NCBI GenBank assembly: GCA_002868855.1
Contig: PKUM01000242.1
Location: forward strand, 1-38,175
Source of the DNA: Chromatiales bacterium
Lineage (GTDB): Bacteria; Pseudomonadota; Gammaproteobacteria; Steroidobacterales; BM003
Direction of reading: 5' to 3'
DNA: 38,175 nt
Shown here: positions 10,915 through 19,496 of the stretch, piece by piece
How the letters are laid out: each line of letters opens with the position of its first letter
Numbering within the stretch: position 1 is the first letter of the stretch
Translations under genes and position numbers: made by a program
Notes under the pieces: generated by a model
Told to the model about the DNA's origin: nothing
The model's database searches: none
Seen by the model: only the letters and a program-made list of their open reading frames with translations

Positions 10915-12753
10915 TTGATTCCAGCACCACCCGACAGTCATGGCATCGCGGTACTTGTGCTGACAGGTTTCGCCCTGGTGTTGTTTACCAGAGACCGTAT
11001 TCCGCTGGAGACCTCCAGCCTTTTCATCCTGATCCTACTGGTATTCGGGTTCCAGCTGTTTCCGTATGAGCGTGACGGCATCGTGCTGAAGCCGACGGAG
11101 TTCTTTGCCGGGTTCGGCAACGAGGCGCTGGTCGCGATTTGCGCCCTGATGATCGTCGGCAAGGCGCTCGAGACCACGGGTGCGTTGCAACCGGTCGCTG
11201 CGCTGATGGCGCGCGGCTGGCAGGCACGCCCTGCCCTGGCCATGCTTGCGACGCTGATCGTCTCGGCAATCCTGAGCGCTTTTCTGAATAACACGCCGAT
11301 CGTGGTGATGTTGCTGCCGATGCTGGTGGGGATCGCGATGCGCACCGGTACGCCGGTAGCCGGGATGCTGATGCCGATGGGGCTGGCGACGCTGATCGGC
11401 GGCATGGGCACCACGATCGGAACATCGACTAACCTGCTGGTCGTCGGTATTGCCGCGGATCTTGGCCAGCCACAGCTGCAGATGTTCGACTTCAGTGTGC
11501 CGGTGCTGATGGTGGGCAGTGTCGGTATCCTGTTTCTTTGGGCTGTTGCACCGCGAATGCTGCCGAATCGGCGGCCGCCGATGGCCGAAGCGTCGCCGCG
11601 CGTTTTCGATGCCCTGCTCTACATCAACGAGGACAGCTACGCCAATGGCAAGACCCTGGCGAAGTTGCGCGAGCGCACTCACGGCAGGTTACGGGTGGAC
11701 CGGATCCAGCGCGGCGAGGGGTTGTATGTCGCCAAGCTGCCATCCGTCACGTTGCAGGCGGGTGACCGATTGCTGGTGCGGGATACGCGCGAGCGGCTGA
11801 AGGAATTCGAGTCGCTGCTGGGCGCCACACTGCACAACGTCACCGATGGCGATGCCAGTTTCGGTGAAGTCGAGCTGCCGCCGGCGTCGGGAGGCCAACA
11901 ACTCGCCGAGGTCGTGGTTACCCGTGGATCGCCGCTGCACCGGCGCAGCCTGCGTGACGCGCGGCTTGCTTCACGCTACAAACTGTTGCCGCTGGCGCTG
12001 CATCGGGCGCGCGCTCCGACCAGCGGGTTCGATTCCGAGATAGGCGATGCGCCGCTGCGCGCCGGTGACGTGATCCTGGTCCAGGGTGCGCCCAGTAGTC
12101 TCCGTGAGATGAAAGAGAGCGGCAACATGCTGGTGCTCGATGGCACGGTCGACCTGCCGCACACCGAGCGGGCGCGGCGCGCAATCGCGATCATGTTGCT
12201 GGTCGTCGCCACCGCCGCGCTGGGATTGTTGCCGATCTCGGTCAGTGCGCTATGCGGCGTCGGGCTGATGCTGGCAACGCAAAGCCTGCGCTGGCGCGAT
12301 GCATTGGGTGCGCTGAGCGCGCCGGTGGTGCTGATTATCGTCACCAGTCTTGCGCTCGGCCTGGCGATGATGCGGACCGGAGGGGCGGAGTATCTGGCTC
12401 AGCTCTATGTGGCGGTCGCCTCCGGGCAGCCAATCTGGCTGATACTGAGCGGTCTGATGCTGGTGATGGCGCTGCTGACCAACGTGGTGTCGAACAACGC
12501 GGCGGCGGTTATCGGTACGCCGATCTCGATCAGCATTGCGACGCAACTCGGCGTGTCCCCGGAACCTTTCGTGCTTGCGGTGCTGTTCGGCGCCAACATG
12601 AGCTACGCGACGCCGATCGGCTATCAGACCAATCTGCTGGTGTTGAGCGCCGGCGGTTATACCTTCTCGGATTTCGTCCGCGTCGGTGTGCCACTGACCT
12701 TCATCATGTGGGTCGGGTTCACAATCGTGCTGACGTTGCGATACCAGCTGTAG
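10915..12753 (+). CDS. SLC13/DASS-type anion symporter with two RCK_C domains
   Basis: 612 residues. Membrane helices occupy about 1-215 and 420-612. Each half has the re-entrant hairpin signature of the divalent-anion symporters: SAFLNNTPIVVMLLP and GTSTNLLVVG in the first, NVVSNNAAAVIGTPI and TPIGYQTNLLVLSAGGY in the second. Between them, roughly residues 222-305 and 325-405, are two cytoplasmic RCK_C (TrkA_C) domains (for example QLAEVVVTRGSPLHRRSLRD and GDVILVQG). Proteins of this layout are annotated as Na+-dependent sulfate or dicarboxylate carriers; the substrate here is not determined. The start is TTG at 10915, supported by AAGGA at 10904-10908 with a six-base gap. It stands alone between divergent and downstream transcription units. 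Confidence 0.9.
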   Translation: MIPAPPDSHGIAVLVLTGFALVLFTRDRIPLETSSLFILILLVFGFQLFPYERDGIVLKPTEFFAGFGNEALVAICALMIVGKALETTGALQPVAALMARGWQARPALAMLATLIVSAILSAFLNNTPIVVMLLPMLVGIAMRTGTPVAGMLMPMGLATLIGGMGTTIGTSTNLLVVGIAADLGQPQLQMFDFSVPVLMVGSVGILFLWAVAPRMLPNRRPPMAEASPRVFDALLYINEDSYANGKTLAKLRERTHGRLRVDRIQRGEGLYVAKLPSVTLQAGDRLLVRDTRERLKEFESLLGATLHNVTDGDASFGEVELPPASGGQQLAEVVVTRGSPLHRRSLRDARLASRYKLLPLALHRARAPTSGFDSEIGDAPLRAGDVILVQGAPSSLREMKESGNMLVLDGTVDLPHTERARRAIAIMLLVVATAALGLLPISVSALCGVGLMLATQSLRWRDALGALSAPVVLIIVTSLALGLAMMRTGGAEYLAQLYVAVASGQPIWLILSGLMLVMALLTNVVSNNAAAVIGTPISISIATQLGVSPEPFVLAVLFGANMSYATPIGYQTNLLVLSAGGYTFSDFVRVGVPLTFIMWVGFTIVLTLRYQL

Positions 12754-12820
12754 TGCGCCTGCGCAGCCCCGGCCGCCGGGCGAACCGGATGGGTCGCTGC
12801 CGCAAGATGGCGCAATTGCC

Positions 12821-12850
12821 TTGACGGCGGGAGCGAGCGGGGGAGATACT
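12821..12850 (+). promoter_or_regulatory. Candidate trp operon promoter
   Basis: TTGACG (12821-12826, 5/6) and GATACT (12845-12850, 4/6) are separated by 18 bases. Transcription would begin near 12857, within two bases of the leader-peptide ATG at 12859, implying an essentially leaderless leader mRNA. The stretch 12754-12820 after the symporter stop holds only short GC-rich inverted repeats without a T-run. Confidence 0.45.
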
Positions 12851-12858
12851 CCGTCGCC

Positions 12859-12939
12859 ATGAATACGCCCTGCCAAAACCACGCCGTTTCAGTCTGGGAG
12901 CTTTGGTGGCACCGCGGCCAGGAGATGGTGACGGTTTAG
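12859..12939 (+). CDS. trpL: trp leader peptide (26 codons, three Trp)
   Basis: A 26-codon reading frame from ATG 12859 to TAG 12937-12939, 93 bases upstream of trpE. Codons 13, 16 and 17 are TGG, within SVWELWWHRG; three Trp in 26 codons is far above the usual frequency. It precedes a strong terminator and contains, right after the Trp codons, the sequence GGAGATGG that can pair with the 5' arm of that terminator. A ribosome stalled on the WW pair (12904-12909) would leave GGAGATGG free, while one that reaches the stop codon would cover it. The role is inferred as the sensor of charged tRNA-Trp; the peptide itself needs no function. A GGAG at 12842-12845 is too far upstream and overlaps the putative -10, so translation may be leaderless. 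Confidence 0.85.
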   Translation: MNTPCQNHAVSVWELWWHRGQEMVTV

Positions 12940-12971
12940 GCGAAGTATCGAGCGCACAACGGCCCATCTCC
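12921..12971 (+). promoter_or_regulatory. trp antiterminator (region 2:3) pairing
   Basis: GGAGATGG (12921-12928) is a perfect 8-bp complement of CCATCTCC (12964-12971), which forms the upstream arm of the terminator hairpin. The two structures are mutually exclusive, the classic attenuation arrangement. A candidate protective 1:2 pairing is CACC (12910-12913) with GGTG (12927-12930), which is weaker. Confidence 0.75.
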
Positions 12972-12999
12972 CGAACCCCCGGGGATGGGCCTTCTTTTT
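12961..12999 (+). terminator. trp attenuator, intrinsic terminator (region 3:4)
   Basis: GGCCCATC (12961-12968) pairs with GATGGGCC (12984-12991). The stem extends by CCC:GGG past a single unpaired T. The hairpin is followed directly by TTCTTTTT (12992-12999). It ends 33 bases before the trpE start, so it must be a conditional terminator. Confidence 0.88.
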
Positions 13000-13032
13000 G
13001 GGCGCGCCCCGGAAAAGCTGACCGAGGAGCCC

Positions 13033-14415
13033 ATGCAAGCACCTTTTGACATCATCGCCGACCTGGATACGCCGGTATCGGCCTACCTCAAACTGGAAGC
13101 GTTTCGGCCGGTCTTTCTGCTGGAAAGCGTCGAGCGTGGAGAGCACCTTGCGCGGTACTCGTTTATCGGGCTCGACGAAGGCTACCGGGTATTGCTCGAC
13201 GGCGACGGGTTGCAGCTCGGCGCGGAACGGGTTGCGCGGCCGTCCTCGGGCGCGGAGTTGCTCGGGCATCTGCGCGACGCGCTGGCCCGGGCGCCGCGAC
13301 TGACCCCGGAGTCCGACCTGCCATTCGTCGGTGGTCTCGTAGGTGCGGCCGGTTACGATGTGGTCCGCTATTTCGAACGCATGAAGACGCCTGCTGCCGC
13401 CACGATGACGGTGCCCGAGCTTGCCTATGCAGCGCCGCGCTCGGTGCTGGTTTTCGATCACCTGACCCGGCGCATGGCGCTGCTGCACGAGGGCAGCGAA
13501 GCCGAACGCCAGCAACTGCAGAAAGAAATCGTCAGAGCATTGCGCGGCGGCGTACCGTACCGGCGCTCCGGTAACTTCGTCGGCCCGGCGCGCGCGAGCA
13601 TCAGCCGCGATGACTTCATCGCCGCGGTCGGAAAGGCGAAACAGGACATACGCGCCGGGGACGTCTACCAACTGGTGCTGTCGGTCGGGTTTCACGGTGA
13701 ATGCACGGTCGACAGTTTCGATGTCTATCGCGCGTTGCGCCTGCTGAATCCGTCGCCGTACATGTATTACCTGGATCTCCCCGGGGTGACGGTTGCCGGT
13801 TCTTCGCCCGAGGCGCTGGTCCGGCTGCATGGGAGGCGGGCCTCGCTCAGGCCGATTGCCGGGACCCGTCCGCGTGGCGGCGATAGCGATGAGGACCTTG
13901 AGCTCGAGCGGCAGTTGCGCGCCGATCCCAAGGAACTCGCCGAGCATGTGATGCTGGTGGATCTCGCGCGCAACGACCTGGGTCGGGTCGCGACCGCCGG
14001 CAGTGTCATCGTCGACCCGTATTGCAGTATCGAGCGCTACAGCCATGTCATGCACCTGGTGAGTGGCGTGCAGGGTGAGCTCAGGCATGAATCCGACGCA
14101 TTCGACCTGTTTGCCGCTGCATTCCCGGCGGGGACGCTGGTCGGGGCGCCAAAGGTGCGGGCGATGGAACTGATCGATCAGTACGAGCCGACCGGGCGCG
14201 GCCTGTATGCCGGAACGGCCGGTTACTTTGGCATTGGCGGTGACATGGACCAGGCGATAGCCATCCGCACGCTGGTCTTCACCGAAGGCGCCTACACGTT
14301 CCAGGCCGGCGCCGGAATCGTCGCCGACTCGGTGGCCGAGGCCGAATACGACGAAGTGCTGGCGAAGAGCCGCATCCTGCGCCGGGCTCTGGAAATGGCC
14401 CAGGAGGGACCATAA
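13033..14415 (+). CDS. trpE: Anthranilate synthase component I
   Basis: 460 residues. TrpE converts chorismate and ammonia (supplied by TrpG) to anthranilate. The N-terminal domain carries the tryptophan feedback element LLES (residues 29-32) and RYSFIG. The catalytic chorismate-binding domain has DIRAGDVYQLVLS, PSPYMYYL, RPIAGTRPRG, DLARNDLGRV and AFPAGTLVGAPKVRAMELI. The PIAGT motif (Ala rather than Lys) favours anthranilate synthase over aminodeoxychorismate synthase. GAGGAG at 13024-13029 sits three bases before ATG 13033. An in-frame ATG at 12985 lies inside the attenuator stem and is rejected. Its TAA overlaps the trpG ATG by one base (TAATG). Control is by the attenuator upstream and by feedback inhibition. 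Confidence 0.97.
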   Translation: MQAPFDIIADLDTPVSAYLKLEAFRPVFLLESVERGEHLARYSFIGLDEGYRVLLDGDGLQLGAERVARPSSGAELLGHLRDALARAPRLTPESDLPFVGGLVGAAGYDVVRYFERMKTPAAATMTVPELAYAAPRSVLVFDHLTRRMALLHEGSEAERQQLQKEIVRALRGGVPYRRSGNFVGPARASISRDDFIAAVGKAKQDIRAGDVYQLVLSVGFHGECTVDSFDVYRALRLLNPSPYMYYLDLPGVTVAGSSPEALVRLHGRRASLRPIAGTRPRGGDSDEDLELERQLRADPKELAEHVMLVDLARNDLGRVATAGSVIVDPYCSIERYSHVMHLVSGVQGELRHESDAFDLFAAAFPAGTLVGAPKVRAMELIDQYEPTGRGLYAGTAGYFGIGGDMDQAIAIRTLVFTEGAYTFQAGAGIVADSVAEAEYDEVLAKSRILRRALEMAQEGP

Positions 14416-15017
14416 TGCCGCGGATATTGCTAATCGATAATTACGATTCGTTCACCTACAACCTCGTTCAGGGATTCATGAGCCTCGGCGCCGATGTCCG
14501 GGTGTTTCGCAACGACGCGATCGACGTCGCCACGGCGCGCGCCCTCGAGCCTACCCACCTGGTGATATCGCCCGGTCCGGGCCGCCCCGAAGGCGCCGGT
14601 GTTTCCATGGCGATGATCCGGGAGTTCTGCGAGACCATCCCGATCCTCGGGGTCTGCCTTGGACACCAGTCGATAGCGGCCGCATTTGGCGCGAGCATCA
14701 TCCAGGCGCGGCGCCTGATGCACGGCAAGACGTCATTGATAGAACACGATGGCTGCGGGGTTTTCGCGGGTCTGCCGAATCCTCTGGAGATCGGGCGCTA
14801 CCATTCGCTTGCGGTGGAAGAGTCGAGCCTGCCAGCCGAACTGATCGTCACGGCACGCACCGATTCTGGCGAGATCATGGGACTGCGCCATCGCAGCATG
14901 GCGCTGGAAGGCGTGCAGTTTCATCCGGAAAGTGTCCTGACACCGAACGGACCCGAATTGATGGAAAATTTCTTGCGCGAGCCCGCGAGCGCCGCAGCAC
15001 TCGCGGCGGGAGGATGA
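14415..15017 (+). CDS. trpG: Anthranilate synthase component II (glutamine amidotransferase)
   Basis: 200 residues, a class I glutamine amidotransferase that feeds ammonia to TrpE. The N terminus ILLIDNYDSFTYNLVQ is standard. The nucleophile Cys81 is in GVCLGHQ, and the His170/Glu172 pair is in VQFHPES. SPGPGRPEGAG forms the oxyanion region. It is not fused to trpD, unlike E. coli. In some species the subunit is shared with folate synthesis (PabA); position inside the trp operon points to TrpG here. The start overlaps the trpE stop (TAATG). Confidence 0.97.
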   Translation: MPRILLIDNYDSFTYNLVQGFMSLGADVRVFRNDAIDVATARALEPTHLVISPGPGRPEGAGVSMAMIREFCETIPILGVCLGHQSIAAAFGASIIQARRLMHGKTSLIEHDGCGVFAGLPNPLEIGRYHSLAVEESSLPAELIVTARTDSGEIMGLRHRSMALEGVQFHPESVLTPNGPELMENFLREPASAAALAAGG

Positions 15018-15019
15018 CG

Positions 15020-16030
15020 ATGCGCGAGCTGCTCGAACTGTTGCTGACGCGGACCGATCTCGACGAATCGCAAGCGCATCAATTGCTGATCGCGCTGACC
15101 GCGGACGACATGGAACCGGCGTTTGCCGGGGCGGTGCTCGCAGCGTTGAGGGTCAAGGGCGCATGCGCGTCTGAAATTCGCGGGCTGGCCACGGGTCTGC
15201 GCCAGCTGGCACGCAAACCGGCTATCGGCGACAGTTCGAATTGCGTCGATATCGTCGGTACCGGCGGTGACGGCTCGGGTAGCCTGAATCTCTCGACCGG
15301 TGCCGCATTACTTGCGGCCGCGGCCGGCGCCCGGGTCGTGAAACACGGTAATCGTTCCGTCTCGAGCCTGTGCGGCAGCGCCGATGTGCTGGAGGCGCTC
15401 GGTCTGGAGTTGCCGCTGGATGAACAGGCCGCCGCGGCATTGCTCGAAGAATGCGGCTTCACATTCCTGTTTGCGCCCTATTACCACCCGGCGCTGAAAA
15501 ACGTCGGGCCGGTGCGTGCCGCGCTCGGTGTGCGCACCGTGTTCAACATCATGGGTCCGCTGGTGAATCCGGCCGAACCGGGGTTCGCGGTCATTGGCGC
15601 ATATTCACCGGAGGTCGCCGCGCTGATGGCGGACACGCTCGCGGGGATGCCGCTGCGCAGGGCGTTCGTGATTCACGGCGAGCCCGGGTGGGACGAGGCC
15701 ACGCCAGTGGGTCCGTTCATGGTTTGGGACGTGCGCTCCGGTAACGTCGAGCAAAGCACGCGCGATCCGGCGAATTACGGTATAGCGCGCTGTAGCGCTG
15801 ACGACCTTGGCGGTGGCGACGCCACGGTGAATTCGCGAATACTCGGCGCGGTGCTGCGCGGCGAAAACCGCGGCCCTGCGCGCGACGCGCTGGTGCTCGG
15901 AGCGGGACTCGCACTCGAGGTGTGCGGCAAGGCCGCCGACCTCGGTGCCGGTCTTGTCCAGGCTTCTGCCGCGATCGACGACGGTAGCGCGGCCCGGGTA
16001 ATCGGCTCACTGGGTGGCCGCGCCGCATGA
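15020..16030 (+). CDS. trpD: Anthranilate phosphoribosyltransferase
   Basis: 336 residues. Transfers phosphoribosyl from PRPP to anthranilate. The PRPP-binding GTGGDGSGSLNLSTG, then KHGNRSVSSLCGSADVLEALG and VFNIMGPLVNPAEP, are diagnostic. ATG 15020 is preferred over ATG 15014 because GGGAGG at 15008-15013 directly abuts the latter but is six bases from the former. The downstream TGA overlaps the trpC ATG (ATGA at 16027-16030), which suggests translational coupling. Confidence 0.96.
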   Translation: MRELLELLLTRTDLDESQAHQLLIALTADDMEPAFAGAVLAALRVKGACASEIRGLATGLRQLARKPAIGDSSNCVDIVGTGGDGSGSLNLSTGAALLAAAAGARVVKHGNRSVSSLCGSADVLEALGLELPLDEQAAAALLEECGFTFLFAPYYHPALKNVGPVRAALGVRTVFNIMGPLVNPAEPGFAVIGAYSPEVAALMADTLAGMPLRRAFVIHGEPGWDEATPVGPFMVWDVRSGNVEQSTRDPANYGIARCSADDLGGGDATVNSRILGAVLRGENRGPARDALVLGAGLALEVCGKAADLGAGLVQASAAIDDGSAARVIGSLGGRAA

Positions 16031-16866
16031 GCGAGGCGTTTCTCGACCGGATGGCGGAAGGCTCGGCGCGCCGCCTGGAAGCTGCACGCAGCCTCGTTCC
16101 CGCAAGGGAAATCGCAGCGCGGGCCGCGGCATTGCCGCCGCCGCCGCCGCTGGTTCTGCATGCCGACGGTTTCGACATCATCGCCGAGCTCAAGCTGCGT
16201 TCGCCATCGGCAGGGACATTGTCCGACGATGCCTCGGGCATCGAGGAGCGGGTGCGGACCTATGCGCGGGCCGGCGCCGCCGCGGTATCGGTATTGACCG
16301 AGCCCGAGCGTTTTGGCGGTGAGCTTGGCCATCTCGAGCGCGCCGCCGCGGCGCTGGCGCCGCTGCGGGTTCCGGCGATGCGCAAGGACTTTTTGCTCGA
16401 TCCCTACCAGGTCAGCGAGGCACGTCTGGCCGGGGCCGGCGGCGTGCTTGCCATCGCCCGGATGCTCGACGACGGGGCGCTGCGGGCGCTGATCGACAGC
16501 GCGCTCGGGCTGGGCATGTTCGTGCTGCTCGAGGCCTTCGATGTCGCGGAGATTGAGCGCTGCGCCGACCTGATTTCCACCTACCCGGAGCATCGCCGCA
16601 ATCTGCCGCTGGGCCTGAACTGCCGCGACCTGCAGACGCTGCAAATCGACCCGGCCCGGCTCGACGCCGCGGCGGGCGCGTTTCCCCGCGACACCGTTGC
16701 TGTCGCGGAAAGCGGCCTGTTCAACGCAGCGGACGCGAGGCGGCTGGCGGGACACGGCTACCAGCTGGCGCTGATTGGCACCGCATTGATGCAGACCGAT
16801 GACGCGGCGGCGTTGCTGCGCGACATGCTGGAAGCTGGCCGTGCGGCACGTGGCGGTGCGATATGA
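16027..16866 (+). CDS. trpC: Indole-3-glycerol phosphate synthase
   Basis: 279 residues, a TIM barrel that closes CdRP to indoleglycerol phosphate. Lys56 in AELKLRSPSAG, Lys120 in MRKDFLLDPYQV and Glu169 in VLLEAFD occupy the catalytic positions of the family; GLNCRDLQTLQID and VAESGL are the later barrel motifs. It is a single-function enzyme, not fused to trpF as in E. coli. A proline run, LPPPPPL, occurs near residue 37 in the N-terminal extension. It is coupled by ATGA to both trpD and trpF. Confidence 0.96.
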   Translation: MSEAFLDRMAEGSARRLEAARSLVPAREIAARAAALPPPPPLVLHADGFDIIAELKLRSPSAGTLSDDASGIEERVRTYARAGAAAVSVLTEPERFGGELGHLERAAAALAPLRVPAMRKDFLLDPYQVSEARLAGAGGVLAIARMLDDGALRALIDSALGLGMFVLLEAFDVAEIERCADLISTYPEHRRNLPLGLNCRDLQTLQIDPARLDAAAGAFPRDTVAVAESGLFNAADARRLAGHGYQLALIGTALMQTDDAAALLRDMLEAGRAARGGAI

Positions 16867-17477
16867 GCCGGGTTCGGGTAAAGATATGTGGTATCCGCGA
16901 TGAATCCACTTTGCAGGCGGCGATCGAAGCCGGAGCGGATGCAGTAGGGTTTGTCGTCGCGGCGCCGTCTTCGCCGCGCTGCATCGAAATTGAACGCGCC
17001 GCGGAGCTCATTGCGCTGACGCCGGCGTTCGTGACGCCGGTCGTGGTCAGCCGTCACCCCGATCCGGAGACGATCCGGGAGTTGTTTGCGGTGGCGACGC
17101 CTGCCTGGTTGCAGACCGACCGGTCCGACTTTGCCAGCCTGGCCCTCGCGCCCGGCTGGAGACCGCTGCCGGTGCTGCGAGAGCCCGGTGATGGCGCGGC
17201 GTTGCAGCCCGGATGGCACACTGTTTTGTGCGAGGGTGCCGACAGCGGCAAGGGCGAACTCGGAGACTGGGGGTTTGCGGCGGAGCTGGCGCGGATCCGC
17301 GCGGTAGTGCTGGCGGGCGGGTTGCGGGCGGACAACGTCCTGACGGCAATACGCCGGGTCGGGCCGTACGCGGTGGACGTGAGCAGCGGCGTGGAATCTG
17401 CGCCGGGCATCAAGGATGTAGCGGCGATCGAGGCTTTCGTTGCCGCGGTGAGACGAGCTGAAAGCGAGGTAGGGTGA
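16863..17477 (+). CDS. trpF: Phosphoribosylanthranilate isomerase
   Basis: 204 residues. Isomerises PRA to CdRP. The N-terminal VKICGI with the catalytic Cys9 and the C-terminal LAGGL-x2-DNV and VDVSSGVESAPGIKD phosphate-binding motifs are clear. Two usual motifs are altered: the QLHGDE block reads QTDRSD, and the general-acid segment LLDA...GGTG reads LCEGADSGKGE, apparently putting Glu where most TrpF have Asp. Another branch of the family with an L-x-EG-x2-SG-x-G segment exists as far as I recall, so it is probably active. It lies between trpC and trpB with overlapping starts and stops. Confidence 0.92.
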   Translation: MSRVRVKICGIRDESTLQAAIEAGADAVGFVVAAPSSPRCIEIERAAELIALTPAFVTPVVVSRHPDPETIRELFAVATPAWLQTDRSDFASLALAPGWRPLPVLREPGDGAALQPGWHTVLCEGADSGKGELGDWGFAAELARIRAVVLAGGLRADNVLTAIRRVGPYAVDVSSGVESAPGIKDVAAIEAFVAAVRRAESEVG

Positions 17478-17479
17478 GT

Positions 17480-18733
17480 ATGGCAGCCAGAGTAGATCAG
17501 GCGACGGATGCGCAGTTGCTGCGCCAGTTGATTGATGGTCAATTGCCGGACGGGCGCGGCCGCTATGGCCCGTTTGGCGGGTGCTACGCGCCCGAGACGC
17601 TTATGCCGGCATTGCGCCGCCTCGCCAGTGCGAGCAGCGACATACTCGACCAGGCGTCGTTCCAGGCCCGCTTGTCAACCGAGTTGGCCGACTGGGTCGG
17701 CCGGCCCACGCCGCTGACGCCGGCGCGCGGACTCGGCGCCAGCTGGGGTGCGGAGGTCTGGCTCAAGCGCGAGGACCTCGCGCATACCGGGGCTCACAAG
17801 ATCAACAATGCGCTCGGCCAGGCCCTGCTGGCGCAGGAAATGGGAGCGCGGCGGGTGGTGGCCGAAACCGGTGCCGGGCAGCATGGCGTGGCGACCGCCG
17901 CGGCCTGCGCCAGGGTCGGTATCCCATGCAGCGTGTATATGGGCGAAATCGATATCGAGCGGCAGTCGCCCAACGTCGATCGGATGCGCCGTCTCGGTGC
18001 GGAAGTCATTGCGGTCACGGGTGGCGACCGGACATTGCGCGCGGCAATCGACGAGGCGTTTCGCGACTGGGTGTCGGATCCCGAGGGTACTTACTACCTG
18101 CTTGGCTCCGCGGTAGGTCCGCATCCGTATCCCTTCCTGGTGCAGCGATTGCAGGCCGTGATCGGCAACGAGGCGCGCGCGCAATTGCTTCATCGCAGCG
18201 GTGCGCTCGCTGACGCGGTATTTGCCTGCGTGGGAGGCGGTTCCAACGCGATCGGTCTGTTTCATCCATTGCTGGGCGACGAACAAACCCTGCTCTTCGG
18301 CATCGAGGCTGGGGGTGAGGGCGCCGGTCTCGGTCAGCACTCGGCCACTCTGGCGCACGGCAAACCGGGCGTGTTGCACGGCAGTTACTCGATGCTCCTG
18401 CAGGACGTCAACGGCCAGGTCCAGGAGACGCATTCTGTTTCGGCCGGTCTGGACTATCCGGGAGTAGGTCCGGAACACGCACTGCTGGCCAGCATCGGCC
18501 GGGTGCACTACGACACGGCGACGGACGAAGAGGCGCTGGATGCACTGGCCGAGTGTTGCCTGCTGGAGGGAATCCTGCCGGCACTGGAAACCGCCCATGC
18601 CTTTGCGGGTGCGCGGCGCTGGGCGGCGTCCAATCCGGGCAAGCGTATTCTTATTGGGCTGTCCGGGCGCGGTGACAAGGACATGCCGACACTGACCAAA
18701 GTCCGCCCCGGAGGGCAGCATGCAACGGCATGA
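17480..18733 (+). CDS. trpB: Tryptophan synthase beta chain
   Basis: 417 residues. PLP enzyme that joins indole (channelled from TrpA) and serine. The PLP lysine is Lys107 in HTGAHKINN; ETGAGQHGVATA, GEIDIERQSPNV, CVGGGSNAIG and GIEAGGEG complete the active site. RGRYGPFGGCYAPETLMPAL is the typical start of the conserved region. ATG 17480 is chosen, with AGGG five bases upstream; the GTG at 17474 overlaps the trpF TGA as GTGA and is an alternative. The 3' end overlaps trpA by 14 bases, consistent with the two subunits forming one complex. Confidence 0.96.
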   Translation: MAARVDQATDAQLLRQLIDGQLPDGRGRYGPFGGCYAPETLMPALRRLASASSDILDQASFQARLSTELADWVGRPTPLTPARGLGASWGAEVWLKREDLAHTGAHKINNALGQALLAQEMGARRVVAETGAGQHGVATAAACARVGIPCSVYMGEIDIERQSPNVDRMRRLGAEVIAVTGGDRTLRAAIDEAFRDWVSDPEGTYYLLGSAVGPHPYPFLVQRLQAVIGNEARAQLLHRSGALADAVFACVGGGSNAIGLFHPLLGDEQTLLFGIEAGGEGAGLGQHSATLAHGKPGVLHGSYSMLLQDVNGQVQETHSVSAGLDYPGVGPEHALLASIGRVHYDTATDEEALDALAECCLLEGILPALETAHAFAGARRWAASNPGKRILIGLSGRGDKDMPTLTKVRPGGQHATA

Positions 18734-19496
18734 ACTCATCTCTGACACGCTGCGCTCGGTGCGGGCAAGCGGCCGGGTACCGCTGGTGGCATTCCTCACG
18801 GCGGGTTACCCGCGGGTCGATCGTTTTGCCGATGATTTGCGCGAGGTCTGTGCGCATGCGGACATTGTCGAGATCGGCGTCCCTTTTACCGATCCGATGG
18901 CCGACGGGGTCACGATTCAGCGCTCGAGCGAGGCGGCGCTTGCGGCCGGTGTCAGCCTGAGCTGGATTCTCGAGCAGCTACGCGATATGGAATCGCGCCC
19001 GGGAACACCGTTGTTGCTGATGAGCTATCTCAATCCACTCCTCGCCTACGGGCTTGACCGTCTCGCCGACGACGCTGCCGCAGCCGGGGTCAGCGGGTTC
19101 ATCGTGCCGGACCTTCCGTTCGACGAGAGCGGCGATTTTCGTGTCAGCATGCAAGGCGAAGGTCTCGCCCTGGTGCAACTGGTCACGCCGATCACGCCCG
19201 ACGAGCGGCTGCGCCAGGTCTGTGACGCGAGCAGCGGGTTTGTCTATGCGGTGACGGTGGCCGGAATCACCGGTGGCGCCACGGCGCTGCCCGAAGGCAT
19301 GCACGACTATCTCGAAAGAGTCAGGGCGGTATCGACGATTCCGGTCTGCGCCGGGTTCGGGATTCGTTCGGCGCAGCAGGTCAGCGCCATAGGCGAACAT
19401 GCGGATGGTGTCATCGTGGGTTCGGCACTGGTCGAGACGATGGAGCGCGGCGAGTCGGCCGGCGCTTTCCTCGACAGCCTGCGGCCCGCCTCGTGA
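18720..19496 (+). CDS. trpA: Tryptophan synthase alpha chain
   Basis: 258 residues. TIM barrel that splits indoleglycerol phosphate to indole and glyceraldehyde-3-phosphate. Catalytic Glu51 and Asp62 lie in VEIGVPFTDPMADG; LMSYLNP, GFIVPDLPFDES, FVYAVTVAGITGG and CAGFGIRS are the usual barrel loops. GGAGGG at 18710-18715 precedes ATG 18720 by four bases. It is the last of the seven trp enzymes; its TGA overlaps the start of a DUF2007 gene (GTGA). Confidence 0.96.
   Translation: MQRHELISDTLRSVRASGRVPLVAFLTAGYPRVDRFADDLREVCAHADIVEIGVPFTDPMADGVTIQRSSEAALAAGVSLSWILEQLRDMESRPGTPLLLMSYLNPLLAYGLDRLADDAAAAGVSGFIVPDLPFDESGDFRVSMQGEGLALVQLVTPITPDERLRQVCDASSGFVYAVTVAGITGGATALPEGMHDYLERVRAVSTIPVCAGFGIRSAQQVSAIGEHADGVIVGSALVETMERGESAGAFLDSLRPAS

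Follow-up and report, generated by a model that had tools for sequence, protein, structure and literature searches.

In the trpL region of Escherichia coli and other enteric bacteria, a Trp-rich leader peptide is encoded, the leader RNA can adopt alternative 1:2, 2:3, and 3:4 pairings, and an intrinsic terminator lies before trpE. In the alphaproteobacterium Sinorhizobium meliloti, the 5' end of trpL is located at the ATG, consecutive Trp codons and a terminator are present, and there is no repression (PMC7298713). TrpL1 (MFAHSTRNWWWTAHPAAH) of the actinobacterium Streptomyces lividans is encoded by a leaderless transcript with a WWW run and apparently Rho-independent termination (PMC8079986). 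In a limited search of the open-access literature, no report of a leaderless trpL in Gammaproteobacteria was found.

We analysed a window of 38,175 nucleotides from a gammaproteobacterium (Chromatiales bacterium, GCA_002868855.1, contig PKUM01000242.1), in which the initial annotation had proposed a complete transcription attenuator in front of trpE. This proposal was supported as the best reading by the sequence, the folds, and the relatives, and positions 12859-12999 were confirmed as a complete ribosome-mediated trp attenuator before trpEGDCFBA. The locus shares the Trp-rich leader, the 1:2/2:3/3:4 alternatives, and the terminator before trpE with enteric trpL (RF00513), whereas its leader has no Rfam match and is predicted to be leaderless, no TrpR was found in the genome, and trpG, trpD, trpC, and trpF are separate. 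It resembles S. meliloti trpL in the start at the ATG (predicted in the window), the Trp cluster, the terminator, and probably the absence of repression; however, S. meliloti has a 14-aa peptide before trpE(G), and its trpDC is located elsewhere. With S. lividans TrpL1 it has in common the leaderless transcript (again a prediction here), the Trp run, and a terminator of the Rho-independent type, whereas trpE of S. lividans is monocistronic. In both mechanism and components, the locus corresponds to a classical trp attenuator; what is new is the lineage.

Leader ORF, terminator, and trp operon

The features of the locus are listed in Table 1. A direct sequence check bore out the 26-codon leader with Trp at codons 13, 16, and 17 described in the initial annotation, with all its coordinates; the leader peptide is MNTPCQNHAVSVWELWWHRGQEMVTV, and the stop codon is TAG at 12937-12939. 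The claimed perfect complementarity between GGAGATGG and CCATCTCC and the claimed intrinsic terminator, a stem followed by TTCTTTTT, were both found, and the first base of GGAGATGG is indeed the 12th after the WW codons. Both a clustered-Trp short ORF upstream of trp genes and an intrinsic terminator between this ORF and trpE, as expected of a trpL-type attenuator, are present. A simple terminator scan reported no terminator, probably because its rules disallow the bulged base in the stem.

Table 1 Features of the trp locus, in positions of the window
Feature	Position	Strand	Basis
-35 element, TTGACG	12821-12826	+	Consensus scan; conserved in relatives
-10 element, GATACT, 18 nt after -35	12845-12850	+	Consensus scan; relatives
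Predicted transcription start, at or <=2 bases from leader ATG	12857-12859	+	Position of -10 element
trpL leader ORF, 26 codons, probably leaderless	12859-12939	+	Sequence check; relatives
Trp codons 13 (12895-12897), 16 (12904-12906), and 17 (12907-12909)	12895-12909	+	Sequence check; Trp cluster conserved
Segment 1, predicted partner 12922-12942 in ribosome-free RNA	12871-12890	+	Fold, prediction only
Segment 2, GGAGATGG, antiterminator 5' arm	12921-12928	+	Sequence, folds, relatives, covariation
Segment 3, terminator 5' arm, contains CCATCTCC at 12964-12971	12961-12973	+	Sequence, fold, covariation
Intrinsic terminator, hairpin 12961-12991, then TTCTTTTT at 12992-12999	12961-12999	+	Sequence, folds
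trpE ribosome site, GAGGAG	13024-13029	+	Read from sequence
trpE	13033-14415	+	ORF list, profile models
trpG	14415-15017	+	ORF list, profile models
trpD	15014-16030	+	ORF list, profile models
trpC	16027-16866	+	ORF list, profile models
trpF	16863-17477	+	ORF list, profile models
trpB	17474-18733	+	ORF list, profile models
trpA	18720-19496	+	ORF list, profile models

When the 279-nt intergenic region was shuffled 3000 times with dinucleotides preserved, a short ORF containing WW arose in 1.5% of the shuffles and a promoter located 5-9 nt ahead of a start codon in 0.07%; the two were never found jointly (0/3000). The Rfam search of the window and the leader yielded no element, T-box included, and no match even at E up to 10; accordingly, the gathering threshold of RF00513 (Trp_leader) was not reached by the leader. 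The seven genes trpE, G, D, C, F, B, and A form a single tight array (13033-19496). A gene for a DASS-like permease, which scored below the model cut-off, precedes the attenuator (10915-12753), and the end of a similar permease gene was also observed upstream of trpE in several relatives.

Promoter position and predicted leaderless start

TTGACG-18-GATACT was the sole sigma70-like promoter in 12700-13100 when the region was scanned with the consensus, a scan that covers sigma70-type sites only. This promoter, which abuts the ATG, had been overlooked in the initial annotation. The distance from the end of its -10 element to the leader ATG is 8 bases. As a transcript normally begins 6-8 nt past the -10 element, the RNA should start at or within about 2 bases of the A of the ATG. 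Such a start leaves no room for a Shine-Dalgarno sequence, and the leader ORF is probably leaderless. The strict pattern TTGAC-N19/20-ATACT-N6-9-ATG occurs once in the whole genome, at this site. The initial annotation had named transcription of trpE from a start downstream of 12999 as evidence that would count against the attenuator; the consensus scan revealed no promoter-like site between the terminator and trpE.

Of 196 genomes belonging to the same gammaproteobacterial order, to which Woeseia also belongs, 195 gave a TrpE match, a count that includes PabB-type paralogues; 110 trpE upstream regions, the window's own included, were compared. In 107 of the 110, a promoter-like site is followed after 4-10 nt by a short ORF with WW or WxW. 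The gap between the -10 end and the leader start is 6, 7, or 8 nt in 94 of these 107 leaders, although the start was chosen partly by promoter score, which favours this peak slightly. When positions were scanned over an 80-nt range, promoter-like sites clustered 6-8 nt ahead of the leader start, with almost none elsewhere. Promoter position and conservation thus imply a start near the ATG, the 5' end being a predicted one. Furthermore, pairing with the anti-Shine-Dalgarno sequence before the leader start showed no excess over shuffled sequences (mean -2.9 vs -2.8 kcal/mol, 107 leaders), whereas that before trpE was stronger (-4.7 kcal/mol).

These data also bear on the possibility that the same attenuator is transcribed mainly from a promoter further upstream, e.g. 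in or near the permease gene, and is translated from an ordinary 5' UTR with a Shine-Dalgarno sequence. The G-rich stretch GGGGGAG, 13-19 nt before the leader ATG and just upstream of the -10 element, looks like a Shine-Dalgarno sequence and could, given such a promoter, serve as a poor ribosome site; a promoter of another type would also have escaped a scan limited to sigma70-type sites. However, the spacing between GGGGGAG and the ATG is too long, the stretch overlaps the spacer and the -10 element of the only promoter found, and it is not conserved. Pairing of -5 kcal/mol or stronger was observed at 21 of the 107 leader starts compared with 28 of 107 after shuffling, and the position of the promoter relative to the ATG is conserved. 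We therefore regard an upstream promoter as quite improbable.

Alternative pairings and their conservation

The free 141-nt RNA folded better than shuffled sequences (z -2.1; 6 of 200 shuffles were as good). Regions covered by the ribosome were masked, as the initial annotation had suggested. With a ribosome at Trp16/17 and the polymerase just past segment 3, the 2:3 pairing formed in the ribosome-free portion of the RNA (-19.1 kcal/mol); a ribosome placed on the stop codon covered segment 2, so that the terminator alone could form, and both outcomes are those that its model requires. In ribosome-free RNA, segment 1 paired with 12922-12942 and the terminator was intact. In full-length minimum-energy folds, the terminator still formed with the ribosome at Trp13 and was still preferred under some assumed footprints with the ribosome at Trp16 or Trp17; such folds take no account of co-transcriptional order and cannot decide these cases.

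Taken alone, the window sequence gives weak evidence for the 2:3 pairing, with a z of -0.8 relative to shuffles of this GC-rich region. Across 104 relatives in the order with a detectable terminator and 2:3 pairing, the median z was -2.4 and all 104 values were below 0. The median energies were -21.6 kcal/mol for the terminator and -16.6 kcal/mol for the 2:3 pairing. The last Trp codon and the start of segment 2 are mostly 8-12 nt apart, and the stop codon is mostly located at the segment 2 start or about 20-30 nt past it; from either position, a terminating ribosome should still cover segment 2. Position 9 of segment 3 is C in 85 genomes, T in 8, and G in 2, with the complementary base (G, A, and C, respectively) in both partners; this count leans towards pairing because the 2:3 partners were taken from the best duplex. 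Segments 2, 3, and 4 change together across the order, and the comparative data make the predicted 2:3 pairing convincing. Folding and covariation indicate an antiterminator that cannot coexist with the terminator and is hidden once a ribosome reaches the stop codon.

Relatives with the same trp operon but lacking both the Trp-rich frame and the pairing had been named as a further argument against the attenuator; close relatives retain both. Outside the Trp cluster, the peptide sequence is highly variable, and a MAFFT alignment of the leaders was set aside owing to poor quality. In most relatives the cluster is WWW, which the initial annotation had overlooked. In the remaining 3 of the 110 regions (G058, G094, and G142), the promoter and the ORF are retained and the Trp cluster has decayed. 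The element is absent from five genomes: four belong to family f12 (L210-L213), in which TrpE is divergent (45-47% identical), and the fifth, G005 (L207), is a small 1.6-Mb genome with trpE immediately after the permease gene. In family f16 (G016, G030, G042, and G062; L191, L173, L178, and L179), the leader begins with GTG; this codon follows the -10 element after 6 nt and is predicted to be a leaderless start.

Regulation of the trp operon

TrpR, which a TrpR-repressed trp operon would require, was not found in the genome; the single TrpR-family protein scored 24.3 bits with the TrpR model against a cut-off of 67.25. This protein passes the YerC/YecD model (L194:1486-1794, G000:C93) and is encoded directly upstream of hisG, which adjoins the gene in 12 of 12 relatives read. 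It is possibly a regulator of histidine genes. Since the sole TrpR-family protein is of this type, attenuation may be the only transcriptional control of the trp operon, a repressor of another family still being conceivable. The TrpR-family protein is also what speaks for a constitutive terminator beside an unrelated small ORF, with trpE under other control (a TrpR-like repressor, a T-box, or TRAP). We give this reading very little credence, and the TrpR, T-box, and TRAP readings were rejected: the protein is of the YerC/YecD type beside hisG, the window holds no Rfam element, and throughout the order the Trp clusters are retained, as are the distance to segment 2 and the covariation among the three segments.

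Sequence and comparison show the position of the promoter, the leader with its Trp codons, the pairings, the terminator, the operon, and the conservation. Very probably, the whole trpEGDCFBA operon is controlled by a ribosome-mediated attenuator that responds to the supply of Trp-tRNA, with the leader translated from a leaderless transcript. For events in the cell, from the start of transcription and leaderless initiation to stalling and termination, we infer the following course. RNA polymerase would initiate at or beside the A of the leader ATG, and a ribosome would load on the 5' AUG and trail the polymerase. When charged tRNA-Trp is scarce, the ribosome would stall at Trp16/17 and leave segment 2 free; segments 2 and 3 would then pair, the terminator would be blocked, and trpE would be transcribed. 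When Trp is ample, the ribosome would reach the stop codon and cover segment 2, and the 3:4 terminator would form. If no ribosome is loaded, the 1:2 hairpin would form and the terminator would be left intact.

In S. meliloti, functions of rnTrpL/peTrpL in trans have been demonstrated. For the window, an additional action in trans, either by the leaderless RNA of about 140 nt that termination would release or by the peptide, is only a rival reading, in favour of which the predicted product is likewise a small leaderless mRNA with a terminator at its end. The peptide, however, varies widely outside the Trp cluster, and with all seven trp genes in one operon there is no S. meliloti-like need to match a separate trpDC, so that we assign such an action a low probability.

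With cis-acting attenuation as the preferred reading, an order of largely uncultured Gammaproteobacteria joins the groups in which attenuation apparently proceeds from a leaderless transcript. More than 100 natural variants with fixed distances between promoter, start codon, Trp cluster, and segment 2 provide data on ribosome-polymerase coupling without a Shine-Dalgarno sequence. For annotation in the order, we suggest that leader peptides be sought right at the promoter.

Related leaders within and outside the order

The same genome carries a second attenuator-like leader ahead of ilvC-leuA (L225:132-400, G000:C174), which is rich in Leu/Ile, MSIANRKYAFPTQGLAGFAWTPADTLGLSLILLGTAG. Its ATG lies 8 nt behind TTGACA-17-CAATAT, a hairpin and TTTTTG are located downstream, and this leader is probably leaderless too. 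No leader was evident by eye at ilvB. The same layout with Leu-rich runs was found in 9 of the 29 relatives read at ilvC; as the search required the layout itself, this number is a lead and gives no rate. It is conceivable, though unlikely, that attenuator leaders of trp and ilv/leu are generally leaderless in the order, which would make attenuation dependent on initiation by 70S ribosomes at a 5' AUG and responsive to initiation-factor state or stress in addition to amino-acid supply, with the released leader RNAs maybe acting in trans.

When 369 genomes of the class and 399 of the phylum were searched with two-gap patterns, true trp leaders were found only within the order; these patterns are strict, miss many real members, and say nothing firm on absence outside it. 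The single match outside the order (G346) was rejected because its TGGTGG is out of frame. A scan of 65 mixed, more distant trpE loci gave few WW/WxW leaders. At one deltaproteobacterial locus (L028), a WWW leader precedes the trpE match by about 276 nt, with its ATG 7 nt after TTGACA-17-TAAGAT, and is possibly another leaderless trpL.
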